Source: Campylobacterota bacterium (GTDB lineage Bacteria > Campylobacterota > Campylobacteria > Campylobacterales > Arcobacteraceae). Taken from it: 53,959 bases of DNA. Location: the NCBI GenBank assembly GCA_003643835.1, contig QMKX01000009.1:1-53959 (forward strand), read 5' to 3'. A program made the translations under genes and the position numbers. This document shows, one piece after another, positions 17,762 to 53,959 of this stretch. The stretch's first letter is position 1; the number at the start of each line of letters is the position of its first letter. The notes under the pieces were generated by a model. It saw nothing but the letters and a program-made list of their open reading frames with translations, was not told where the DNA came from and ran no database searches.

Positions 17762-19027
17762 TTGTTTATACATATAGATATAGATACATTCTTTGCATCC
17801 GCACATAGAATTGGCACAAATATATACGACGACATTCCTATAGCAGTAGGTGGCAGGAGCAATTTAAGTATATTTGATACAGCCAAACAAAATCGCAAAA
17901 TCAGTGGTATAGCTGGAGCATTTTCAAGTTCAATTTTAAGCTACAACAAAAACAAAAGTTTTGAAGAGTATTTTATAGATAAAGATGGTAGAATTAGAGG
18001 TATTGTCACTACAGCATCTTATGAAGCGAGGGCATACGGCGTGAAAACCGCTATGAGTATATCTGAAGCTTTGAAACTTTGTCCAGATTTGATAGTGCTG
18101 CCACCAAACTATCCTCTATATCACGAGCTTTCGTATCAGCTTAAAAAATTATTGGAAAAAAATATACCAATAGTTAGCCAGTTTAGTATCGATGAGTTTT
18201 TTTGTGATATATCTGGGTATATTGATGATGATAAAGCAGTAGCATTTGCTTTGAATTTACAAGCACTTGTATATAGAGAACTTGAAATACCAGTATCAAT
18301 AGGTATTTGCAAAGCGAAAATGTTGTCAAAAGTAGCTACAAATTATGCTAAACCATATGGTGTGAAATATATACAAAAAAATCAAATAAATGAGTTCATC
18401 AAAAATATAAATATATCAAAATTTCCAGGTATTGGCAAAGGATATTTCAAAAAATTATCAGCACTAAATATCAAAAATCTTATAGATATAAAACAACACA
18501 AAGCCACTTTGTATAGCTGGGGCAAACAAGGAATATGGCTGTATCAAGCGACACAAGGCTTGGATACAAATACTCTTGTCATAGATAACCAAAATAGAAA
18601 ATCAATAAGCATAAGCAGAACATTTGATGCTATATACGATAGAGTTGAGATACAAAGACGCTTGGCAGTGTTGTGTAGGCACATAAGTTTTTTGTGCCAA
18701 AACCGGTCACTATATCCAACTTGTTTTGAGCTTAAATTTATATATGAACATGGTTTAAAAAACAGAAACAATCATAAAATATATGAACCATATAGCGAAA
18801 TAGTTTTTAGAAAAACTATCAAAAAACTTTTCAACGATACCGATACCAATATATCAAGAGCGATCACTTATCTAAATATAACTGTCTCAAAATTCCACGA
18901 TAAGAAAGCTAAAAATACTTTGTTTGAAGAAAAATCAAACAATATAGACATATATATACATACTATCCGTCAAAAATATGGCATAGATATGTTTAAATTT
19001 GCAAGCGAGTTAAATAATTTGCCCTAA
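17762..19027 (+). CDS. Y-family DNA polymerase (DinB/ImuB-like)
   Basis: A 421-residue translesion polymerase. The palm motif is HIDIDTFFASAHR at the N-terminus and the second catalytic motif SIDEFFCDISG near residue 140, so both acidic clusters are kept. GICKAKMLSKVATNYAKP and FPGIGKGYFKKL mark the rest of the palm and the thumb HhH. Between AVGG and GIVTTASYEAR there is an extra segment of about 45 residues compared with E. coli DinB, which I associate with the Campylobacterota version. No LexA box or partner gene is visible. The start is TTG 17762 behind TTGAGG. Its stop lies just before a structured repeat. Confidence 0.85.
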   Translation: MFIHIDIDTFFASAHRIGTNIYDDIPIAVGGRSNLSIFDTAKQNRKISGIAGAFSSSILSYNKNKSFEEYFIDKDGRIRGIVTTASYEARAYGVKTAMSISEALKLCPDLIVLPPNYPLYHELSYQLKKLLEKNIPIVSQFSIDEFFCDISGYIDDDKAVAFALNLQALVYRELEIPVSIGICKAKMLSKVATNYAKPYGVKYIQKNQINEFIKNINISKFPGIGKGYFKKLSALNIKNLIDIKQHKATLYSWGKQGIWLYQATQGLDTNTLVIDNQNRKSISISRTFDAIYDRVEIQRRLAVLCRHISFLCQNRSLYPTCFELKFIYEHGLKNRNNHKIYEPYSEIVFRKTIKKLFNDTDTNISRAITYLNITVSKFHDKKAKNTLFEEKSNNIDIYIHTIRQKYGIDMFKFASELNNLP

Positions 19028-19086
19028 ACCAGAAAAGCGATAGCGGTTTGCGAAGCAAATTTCTCTGATAAGTAGTTTAGGGTTCC
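19021..19086 (+). repeat. 66-nt structured repeat, copy A
   Basis: Outer stem CCCTAAAC (19022-19029) with GTTTAGGG (19075-19082); middle stem AGAAA with TTTCT; inner hairpin TTTGC-GAA-GCAAA (19047-19059). It ends GGTTCC. Two other 66-nt copies at 50622-50687 and 52723-52788 keep the stems while changing bases on both sides. It sits at the 3' end of the polymerase gene and the first bases overlap the stop region. A further hairpin, GGTTCCAA (19081-19088) with TTGGAACC (19103-19110), follows and may act as a terminator. Confidence 0.8.
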
Positions 19087-19195
19087 AATATGGCTTTGAG
19101 TTTTGGAACCAAAAAATTTATACGAAGTCAAATATTAAAGGGCACATATAAAATAACTATAAATAGTAGCCAATTTGTATTTGATTGAAAGTATA

Positions 19196-19510
19196 TTAAG
19201 GTCACCTCTAAAAACCTCTATGCTCATAGCTTTAGGTTGCTTTTTCTTATTTTAAAGTTTTAGCTTGAAGGACTAACGGGTTAATTCAAAAGCTAAAACT
19301 TTAAAATAAGGAAAAGCGAACAAAGCCCGTAGGGAAGGGAAGTTTTCGCGAAAAAAGTTCATAAAATTTCTTGAATTAATTAGTTAACCCTTCAAAAGTA
19401 GCCGTGCCGATTTTTGCATAGCGAAAAACTTTCTGTGAAATTTTTATGAACTTTATACATCAAAAACCGCTCCTTCTATGAGCTATAGAGGCTTTTAGAG
19501 GTGCCCTTAA
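19196..19510. mobile_element. 307-bp MITE-like element with TTAA flanks
   Basis: Terminal inverted repeats of about 30 bp (19200-19229 and 19476-19506) begin GGTCACCTCTAAAA and, on the other strand, GGGCACCTCTAAAA. Both ends are flanked by TTAA (19196-19199 and 19507-19510), which fits a 4-bp target duplication. Inside are two more large inverted repeats: a perfect 21-bp pair (19246-19266 with 19290-19310, extendable to about 30 bp with wobble pairs) and a 16-bp pair with one bulge (19355-19370 with 19437-19453). There is no open reading frame. It is a non-autonomous element needing a transposase from elsewhere. The right TTAA supplies the stop codon of the neighbouring FISUMP gene. Confidence 0.8.
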
Positions 19511-48869: not shown

Positions 48870-49827
48870 AAACAGCCTTTATGTGGTTATTATATCGTTA
48901 TTGTTTTATTTTTCCTCTACAATTTACACAAACAAGGTCATAAATATCCCAGCTGGGTCTGTTGGCGATACGATATCGCACCTCAACAAACAAAATCAGC
49001 CATCAAATATATTGGACAACATAGCTTTAAGACTGCTCGGCTCACCACAAAAAGGCTGGATAGATATAAAATCCACAAAGCTTACGAGACTTGATTTTCT
49101 AAATCGCCTAACTTCATCGAGATCTCCCGGAGTTTCTATCACTTTGATACCCGGTGAGACATATTATTTTTTTCTAAAAACATTATCTAAAAAATTAGAC
49201 TTATCATACGACAAACTACAAACAGCCTATGACAACCAATCATACAAACTTGATGGCAATATATTAGCCGACACCTACACACTACCATTGGGTATGACGG
49301 AAAGCCGAGTGATATATTTTTTGTTAAGTCACACAGAAAAAAGATATGAAAAGTTAAGTTTAAAGATATTTAAACACTACAACAAAACAAATTGGTACAG
49401 ATATGTGTCCATAGCTTCTGTGATACAAAAAGAAGCAGCATCAAAACAAGAGATGCCTATAGTTTCAAGTGTCATACACAACCGTCTAAAATTGGGTATG
49501 AGACTACAGATGGACGGCACACTAAATTATGGCAAATACTCACACACAAAAGTGACCGCACATATGATAGACCACGACAAAACCAGCTACAACACATACA
49601 AAAATACAGGCATACCAAAACACCCTGTGTGTGCTGTAGGTTTCGATGCTATAAGAGCAGCTATAAAACCAGCAAATACTGATTATTTATTTTTTGTGAA
49701 GATCAAAAATCAAAAAAAACACAAATTTAGCAAAACTCACAAACAGCACAACAATATGATACAACAAAATAAAAAAATTAAGCTACTTGAAACTTTTATA
49801 GAAACATTTTCACCTCGTGAAAACTAG
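48835..49827 (+). CDS. mltG: Endolytic transglycosylase MltG
   Basis: A YceG-like enzyme that cuts nascent peptidoglycan. It has a membrane anchor, VVIISLLFYFSSTIY, then a LysM-like part and the catalytic region SVIQKEAASKQEMPIV (catalytic Glu in QKEA), HNRLKLGMRLQMDGTLNYG, YNTYKNTGIPKHPVC and the end HNNMI. ATG 48835 would overlap the AsmA-like start by 35 bases; GTG 48883 avoids that overlap but lacks a clear ribosome-binding site; the first ATG in frame is 48784. The stop lies just after a hairpin. Confidence 0.92.
   Translation: MRTNQNKIFLTINSLYVVIISLLFYFSSTIYTNKVINIPAGSVGDTISHLNKQNQPSNILDNIALRLLGSPQKGWIDIKSTKLTRLDFLNRLTSSRSPGVSITLIPGETYYFFLKTLSKKLDLSYDKLQTAYDNQSYKLDGNILADTYTLPLGMTESRVIYFLLSHTEKRYEKLSLKIFKHYNKTNWYRYVSIASVIQKEAASKQEMPIVSSVIHNRLKLGMRLQMDGTLNYGKYSHTKVTAHMIDHDKTSYNTYKNTGIPKHPVCAVGFDAIRAAIKPANTDYLFFVKIKNQKKHKFSKTHKQHNNMIQQNKKIKLLETFIETFSPREN
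49807..49823 (+). terminator. Hairpin at the 3' end of mltG
   Basis: TTTTCAC-CTC-GTGAAAA is a perfect 7-bp hairpin ending two bases before the stop codon. No T run follows. It may stabilise the 3' end or pause transcription. Confidence 0.35.
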
Positions 49828-49845
49828 CCGTGGCGATTTTTGCCT

Positions 49846-49885
49846 GCAAAAAAGTTTCTGTGAAAAGCGATTCTCTTGTTCGGAC
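49846..49885 (+). repeat. Fragment similar to the MITE interior
   Basis: The stretch begins TAGCCGTG and continues CGATTTTTGC ... TTTCTGTGAAA, as does 19399-19440 inside the MITE-like element, with a few changes. It lacks the terminal repeats here. It marks a decayed or partial copy. Confidence 0.5.
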
Positions 49886-49893
49886 AAAATATA

Positions 49894-49969
49894 AAAATAG
49901 CAAGATATGTTATGTTCTGGGGAACCCTAAACTAGTTTAGGGCAAAATATGAAATAAAAAACAAAATAG
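49894..49969 (+). repeat. 75-bp dispersed repeat containing short hairpin D
   Basis: The first 27 bases are identical to 52614-52640 and the remainder nearly so. In the middle is a 23-nt hairpin, 49921-49943, with CCCTAAAC and GTTTAGGG arms separated by two bases. The hairpin looks like the 66-nt element with its interior removed, since both keep GGAACC at the same end. Confidence 0.7.
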
Positions 49970-49986
49970 AATATATTTCTACACTC

Positions 49987-50009
49987 GGAACCCTAAATTT
50001 ATTTAGGGT
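49987..50009 (+). repeat. Short hairpin E
   Basis: GGAACCCTAAAT-TT-ATTTAGGGT: a 23-nt derivative of the same family as hairpin D, with the stem sequence altered on both sides (AAAT/ATTT in place of AAAC/GTTT). The rest of 49828-50092 has no gene. Confidence 0.65.
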
Positions 50010-50621: not shown

Positions 50622-50687
50622 GAACCCCGCAACTACTTATCAGAGAAATTCGCCTTGCGAACCGCACCAGCTTTTCTGGTTCGGGGC
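50622..50687 (-). repeat. 66-nt structured repeat, copy B
   Basis: Reverse-oriented copy of 19021-19086. On the minus strand it has outer arms CCCCGAAC and GTTGCGGGG (one bulged base), the AGAAA/TTTCT stem and inner hairpin TTCGC-AAG-GCGAA. Length is exactly 66 nt. It lies 37 bases beyond the stop of the 74-residue gene at 50725-50949. Confidence 0.8.
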
Positions 50688-52515: not shown

Positions 52516-52552
52516 AAATAAAATCAAGATATTTTCATATGTTTGGTTTGAA
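52516..52552. repeat. 37-bp exact dispersed repeat, copy 2
   Basis: Identical to 50477-50513; see that entry. The two copies lie about 2 kb apart in the same orientation on either side of the adaptor and serB genes. Confidence 0.75.
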
Positions 52553-52613
52553 ACTGAATTGTTTCGGCTTTGCCTCACAATGATAGTTTGTCCGCTTAAA
52601 GCGAAATACCAAT

Positions 52614-52688
52614 AAAATAGCAAGATATGTTATGTTCTGGGAAACCCTAAACTTGTTTAGGCAAAATATGAAATAAACAATAAAATAG
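52614..52688 (+). repeat. 75-bp dispersed repeat containing short hairpin F
   Basis: A near copy of 49894-49969. The hairpin within (52640-52662) reads AACCCTAAAC-TT-GTTTAGGC, with one arm base lost compared with D. Confidence 0.7.
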
Positions 52689-52722: not shown

Positions 52723-52788
52723 GCCCCAGACCAGAAAAGCGATAGCGGTTCACAAAGTGAATTTCTGCGATAAGTAGTCAGGGGTTCC
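52723..52788 (+). repeat. 66-nt structured repeat, copy C
   Basis: Outer arms CCCCAGAC and GTCAGGGG (one A-A mismatch), the AGAAA/TTTCT stem, and inner hairpin TTCAC-AAA-GTGAA (52749-52761). Same length and orientation as copy A. The stem bases differ from A and B on both sides. A CATATCGTCAC...CGTCGCTCCTG stretch follows, shared with 53780-53815. Confidence 0.8.
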
Positions 52789-52915: not shown

Positions 52916-53015
52916 AATGAGTGAGACATCTTATAGTAGCAACTCACTTGCTACCACTCATTAAGGAGCGATAGACAGGCTTTTTCCTGTCAAGCGATAG
53001 CACAAGTGAGACATC
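52916..53015. repeat. Right-end structured repeat, unit R1 (85-nt period)
   Basis: Two GTGAGACATC motifs (52921-52930 and 53006-53015) bound a unit with three stems: AATGAGTG/CACTCATT (52916-52923 with 52955-52962), GTAGCAA-CTCAC-TTGCTAC (52936-52954) and GACAGG/CCTGTC (52974-52991). It matches R2 at 53837 with paired base changes. No reading frame. It ends just before the small membrane genes. Confidence 0.75.
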
Positions 53016-53054
53016 TATTTTAGCTCGTTTAAGTTTATATTAGTAAAATGTCAT

Positions 53055-53740: not shown

Positions 53741-53815
53741 GGCCCCGAACGAGTTCTTTGGTTCCGAGAATAATGTTGTGCATATCGTCACTCGTCGCTC
53801 CTGCCTCGTCACTCG
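53741..53815. repeat. Degenerate hairpin element with shared flank
   Basis: GGCCCCGAACGAGTTC then GGTTCCGAGAATA: a shortened relative of the 66-nt element, with the GGTTCC end kept. The flank from CATATCGTCAC to CTGCCTCGTC repeats the flank of copy C (52804-52835) almost exactly, and that of copy B at 50581-50611 in part. It suggests duplication of the element with adjacent sequence. Confidence 0.55.
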
Positions 53816-53836
53816 CAAAGCACGAGTGAGACATCT

Positions 53837-53959
53837 AGTGAGACATCTATAGTAGCAACTCGCTTGCTACCACGAGTTAGAGAGCGAAACAGATTTTATA
53901 TCTGTGAAGTGATAGCACGAGTGAGACATCTATAGTAGCAACTCGCTTGCTACCACGAG
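53837..53959. repeat. Right-end structured tandem repeat, unit R2 (83-nt period)
   Basis: A 40-nt block beginning AGTGAGACATC at 53837-53876 recurs exactly at 53920-53959, where the window ends, giving a period of 83 bases. Within the unit are GTAGCAA-CTCGC-TTGCTAC (53852-53870), AACTCG/CGAGTT, and ACAGAT-TTTAT-ATCTGT (53889-53905). The array probably continues beyond the edge. No reading frame. Confidence 0.8.

Follow-up and report, generated by a model that had tools for sequence, protein, structure and literature searches.

The window, a 53,959-nt stretch of Campylobacterota DNA, contains three 66-nt copies (A, B, and C) of a structured repeat, together with several shorter palindromic units (Table 1). 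Copy A starts at the end of an ORF (17762–19027) with IMS (Y-family polymerase) domains, and the stop codon of this Y-family DNA polymerase-like frame lies within the copy A arm, while the protein of the sister species ends a few residues earlier, in a different sequence. A degenerate pattern run over the whole window matched only A, B, and C, each with 0 mismatches, which confirms the coordinates and strands assigned by the initial annotation; as 0 matches were expected in 100 shuffles, a chance origin of the copies was ruled out. An inverted GGAACC stands 18 nt from copy A, a possible remnant of a head-to-head dimer.

Table 1 Repeat elements identified in the window (CM R1, covariance model R1; Fam2 and Fam3, second and third families)
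Feature	Position	Strand	Basis
Long-form element, copy A	19021..19086	+	Pattern match; CM R1, 95 bits
18-nt spacer and inverted head GGAACC (19105-19110) opposite the copy A head GGTTCC (19081-19086)	19087..19110	.	Direct reading
Fam2 unit CAAAAGTAGCCGTGCCGATT-hairpin-AAACTTTCTGTGA, resembling the long-form loop module	19393..19438	+	
Second Fam2 unit, different hairpin	49826..49863	+	
Short-form palindrome GCCCTAAAC-TA-GTTTAGGG-TTCC, without loop module	49921..49944	-	
Short-form palindrome CCCTAAAT-AA-ATTTAGGG-TTCCGAG	49984..50009	-	
Long-form element, copy B	50622..50687	-	Pattern match; CM R1
Fam3 unit AGAGAATCGC-hairpin-GTTTCTGTAA	52407..52443	+	
Short-form palindrome, decayed	52643..52661	-	
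Long-form element, copy C	52723..52788	+	Pattern match; CM R1
Short-form palindrome GGCCCCGAAC-GA-GTTCTTTGG-TTCCGAG	53742..53768	+	

Other repeats are also present. A MITE-like stretch of ~310 nt (19199–19510) has terminal inverted repeats of ~30 nt (AAGGTCACCTCTAAAAACCTCTA... / ...TAGAGGCTTTTAGAGGTGCCCTTAAG) and contains a 35-nt inner inverted repeat (19232–19266/19290–19324) and one Fam2 unit; right ends like its own were found again elsewhere. MicroRNA-like Rfam matches fell on this separate inverted repeat (19232–19324) and not on the 66-nt element. A further family, GATGTCTCACTCGTGCTATCGCTT...GTAGCAAGCGAGTTGCTAC, occupies 52930–53019 and 53819–53959, and its inner hairpin is exchanged too (ACAGATATAAAATCTGT versus ACAGGCAAAAGCCTGT). 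The repeat ATTGTGAGGCAAAGCCGAAACAATTCAG at 52548–52610 recurs in the intergenic islands of the genome and resembles the GCGAGG...GAAGCAAT repeats of other bacteria.

Anatomy of the element and its relatives

The 66-nt element is a REP-like short palindrome in which a 43-nt module replaces the loop of 2 to 3 nt. At least 35 palindromes of the short kind, for example GCCCTAAAC-AA-GTTTAGGG-TTCCGAG, occur in the 726 kb examined, and every copy combines a variable, mostly self-complementary arm pair with a near-constant head (GGTTCCGAG). In the long form, the loop module, apparently a three-way junction, has two hairpins, a small GC-nnnn-GC one and an exchangeable one, framed by the unpaired letters CCAGAAAAGC and GATAAGT, which are almost unchanged between two species while the adjoining stem letters vary. 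Three of the 13 long copies in the source genome (L001, L009, and L010) carry arms of different types on the 5' and 3' sides, so the arms reassort. The inner hairpin types and GC-nnnn-GC loop types likewise occur in many combinations, and two copies (L086 and L081) hold ~50 to 60 extra nt nested inside the inner hairpin, which together imply that segments reassort and nest. A hammerhead-like core was considered and dropped, because CTGATAA is GCGATAA in many copies.

The three inner hairpins (TTTGC/GCAAA, TTCGC/GCGAA, and TTCAC/GTGAA) are present as first described. The outer arms also change jointly, as claimed, but those of copy B (CCCCGAAC/GTTGCGGGG) and copy C (CCCCAGAC/GTCAGGGG) are imperfect, their pairing being interrupted by a bulge or an A-A mismatch. 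Similarly, the three-stem fold that the initial annotation ascribed to all three copies is the consensus of 13 copies and the minimum free energy structure of A, but not that of B or C folded alone; the folding z scores of the lone copies are −2.3 (A), −1.2 (B), and −3.9 (C).

The second family resembles the loop module. An exact pattern located Fam2 units, GTAGCCGTGGCGATT-hairpin-AAACTTTCTGTGA, in three species, and the model found them in a fourth. The likeness between their flanking letters and the loop module scored 19.5, which was reached in 0 of 20,000 shuffles when the tandem 3' side was included and in 6 of 20,000 without it. Their hairpin is exchanged among unrelated stems, their outer pair is G-C in 18 and C-G in 15 of the 44 units, with other combinations in 11, and GTAG and CTAG alternate. 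In the sister species, Fam2 and Fam3 units alternate in a tandem array (L095, 1–260), joined at TTTCTGTGAAAA.

Compensatory change in the stems

Across 24 copies from two species, 89.8% of the base-pair cells are paired. Two-sided changes numbered 21, compared with 9.6 ± 2.4 after shuffling (0 of 500 shuffles reached the observed value) and 1 to 5 in controls with slid partners; because related copies are not independent, the counts in the shuffle tests overstate significance. Two further measures on these 24 copies, how many pairs show a two-sided change (131 of 500) and how many pair types occur (282 of 500), were not above the shuffles. When the arms of 63 long and short copies, delimited by eye, were permuted, the observed value of −8.57 kcal/mol was reached in 0 of 2000 permutations (−6.28 ± 0.23 kcal/mol), and restricting the test to the 33 distinct arm pairs, or to the sister species, gave the same outcome (0 of 2000). 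Sister copies scored higher with a structured model than with a sequence-only model (for example, 63.0 versus 47.4 bits and 57.1 versus 42.9 bits), the effective sequence numbers of the two models being different.

The view that this is not a passive repeat is supported, but compensatory change can be mimicked by gene conversion and template switching. Were the repeats passive, quasi-palindrome correction by template switching would copy one arm to the other and gene conversion would swap segments, with no need for a function. Multi-base compensatory changes can indeed arise by template switching (PMC8794818), and both the free reassortment of arms and hairpins and the swapping of entire hairpins in one step are in keeping with such a process. 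However, the unpaired module letters are near-invariant in two species beside varying stem letters, so that arm correction alone is insufficient and template switching would need a separate cause for them. Together with the fixed 19-nt head-to-head spacing described below, this makes a purely passive origin improbable.

The inner ends of the arms are AAC/GTT, GAC/GTC, AAT/ATT, AGC/GCT, or GGC/GCC in 57 of the 63 copies. Folded attC sites of integrons are imperfect hairpins whose arms are bulged, whose terminal hairpin varies, and whose inner ends read AAC...GTT, all of which have counterparts in our elements. However, the 2-nt loops of the short forms, the opposite orientations, and the absence of cassette-like arrays do not fit recombination sites of this kind. 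The source genome shows no sign of an integron integrase, and its one Phage_integrase gene (a 354-aa frame) is what one would expect of a chromosomal Xer recombinase. We therefore do not class the elements as attC sites and regard an attC-like role as extremely unlikely.

Distribution and genomic organization

The source genome (1.43 Mb in 40 contigs, 96% complete) holds 13 pattern copies of near-identical length and a few diverged ones, while a reversed control pattern gave 0. The initial annotation had proposed a covariance-model scan of this genome and its relatives; the model built from these 13 copies (R1) revealed about eight diverged copies in the sister species G001 (median protein identity to the source genome, 76%). 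Further copies therefore exist, and in both species the changes preserve the stems much more often than they disrupt them, the reverse of what had been named as evidence against structural selection. Among 397 genomes of the phylum searched with the covariance model, no other matched at E ≤ 1e-4. Judged by family size and gene content, the lineage probably belongs to Campylobacterota, perhaps to Arcobacteraceae. A match with three mismatches in G041 was no better than the reversed-pattern control, and scanning 84,980 species genomes with the pattern returned three matches, all in Ruminococcus and near the chance estimate of about two. Three matches were found in viral contigs by pattern scan, and the phage and plasmid records searched held no match to the element. 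Several contigs of the source genome end inside these repeats (L029, L031, L033, L038, L043, and the window end), so the assembly under-represents the repeats and its gaps may hide related genes.

Nearly all elements (46 of 47) are located outside credible ORFs, and of 22 neighbors no more than 150 nt apart, 16 have opposite orientations. Seven pairs are head to head; the spacer that separates GGTTCC from GGAACC (allowing a one-letter variant) is 19 nt in five of them and 20 nt in one. The elements are mixed in a mosaic-like manner with several other repeats in islands between genes. At both comparable syntenic sites, where the flanking genes are orthologous and adjacent, the element is absent from the sister, which could reflect loss. 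A recurrent carrier repeat has five empty occurrences and others that enclose an element, short or long; here, ~20 nt of similar AT-rich sequence flanks the element, either as a target duplication or as a recombination product. Neither a precise target-site duplication nor an excision event was observed. Gaps that contain an element seem to have more synteny breaks (3 of 11 are syntenic, compared with 347 of 392 short gaps), but gap length and contig ends confound the comparison.

In an alternative reading, the copies would be transcribed, often as gene 3' tails, into a structured small RNA or a cis-acting RNA element that binds a protein or ligand at its junction. The stems covary around invariant unpaired letters, copy A overlaps a stop codon and would be part of that mRNA, and tandem or convergent gaps hold 8 of the 11 classifiable long copies. 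However, the gene neighbors of the copies are not consistent, short forms without the module have the same arms, head, and clusters, head-to-head dimers exist, and the orientation of the elements to genes is mixed. The curated covariance models of Rfam likewise gave nothing for the element at gathering or relaxed thresholds, and judged from sequence, we consider an RNA function unlikely. The initial annotation had left a choice between a transcribed RNA and a hairpin recognized by a protein, which the organization tilts rather than settles: extragenic REP-like palindromes, fixed-spacing dimers, mosaic clusters, and differences between species favor a mobile DNA hairpin over an RNA gene.

A probable mobile DNA hairpin

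Overall, the 66-nt element is probably the long form of a REP/REPIN-like (BIME-like), nonautonomous family of palindromic DNA. Such an element would be copied in trans, now or recently, by a hairpin-reading enzyme that acts on single-stranded DNA, with replication forks as one possible site. This enzyme would read the unpaired letters and the shape, leaving the stem letters free to vary as long as they still pair. By analogy, the elements most likely resemble REPINs and tagged REPs in their working, as single-stranded DNA that folds and is read by an enzyme.

REPINs are inverted doublets whose spacers are constrained by length and hairpin and whose hairpins commonly undergo compensatory changes (PMC3116915, which also names the small dispersed repeats, SDR, of cyanobacteria). 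The elements described here are likewise short extragenic palindromes (46 of 47) arranged in clusters and mainly as inverted doublets (16 of 22) of constrained spacing, with compensatory arm changes. They share with GTAG- and CGTC-tagged REPs the 20- to 40-nt palindromes, the head-to-head and tail-to-tail dimers, the conserved head-to-head spacers, and the restriction of families to species (PMC3733652). Unlike REPINs and BIMEs, however, they have many arm types and a 43-nt structured module in the loop, and their copy number is low compared with REPs, in the tens rather than the hundreds. Moreover, a search for the cognate RAYT transposase (Y1_Tnp, PF01797) in four genomes of the genus, the source genome being 96% complete with contig ends in repeats, gave nothing above the cut-off, the sole weak match (15 bits) lying in a transporter-like frame. 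The tagged REPs differ as well: our elements have an unpaired head, TTCCGAG, and several sister copies have AAGTGC where those of the source genome have AAGTAG, so that the GTAG of the module, which overlaps the arm instead of forming an unpaired tag at the stem foot, is lost there (AAGTGCC, AAGTGCTT). Because RAYT was not found and the GTAG tag is not conserved, we do not claim REPIN or GTAG-REP membership. Cyanobacterial SDR are very small hairpin-forming repeats that are nested in other repeats and are not known to have a transposase; our elements are similar in this description but come from a different phylum. A reverse transcriptase was rejected as the mover: it is present in G000, G002, and G003 and absent from G001, which carries elements.

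More tentatively, the elements may represent a RAYT-independent class of mobile hairpin, with a fixed unpaired frame and stems swapped as cassettes, also between families, that would be mobilized by a putative single-strand hairpin enzyme of the genus. In any case, they provide a natural collection, in a genus with no detected REP transposase, of dozens of copies that differ in their stem letters but keep the fold and the unpaired letters. With such a collection, one can ask whether REP-like spread requires RAYTs and whether selection or template switching is the source of compensatory change in DNA hairpins.
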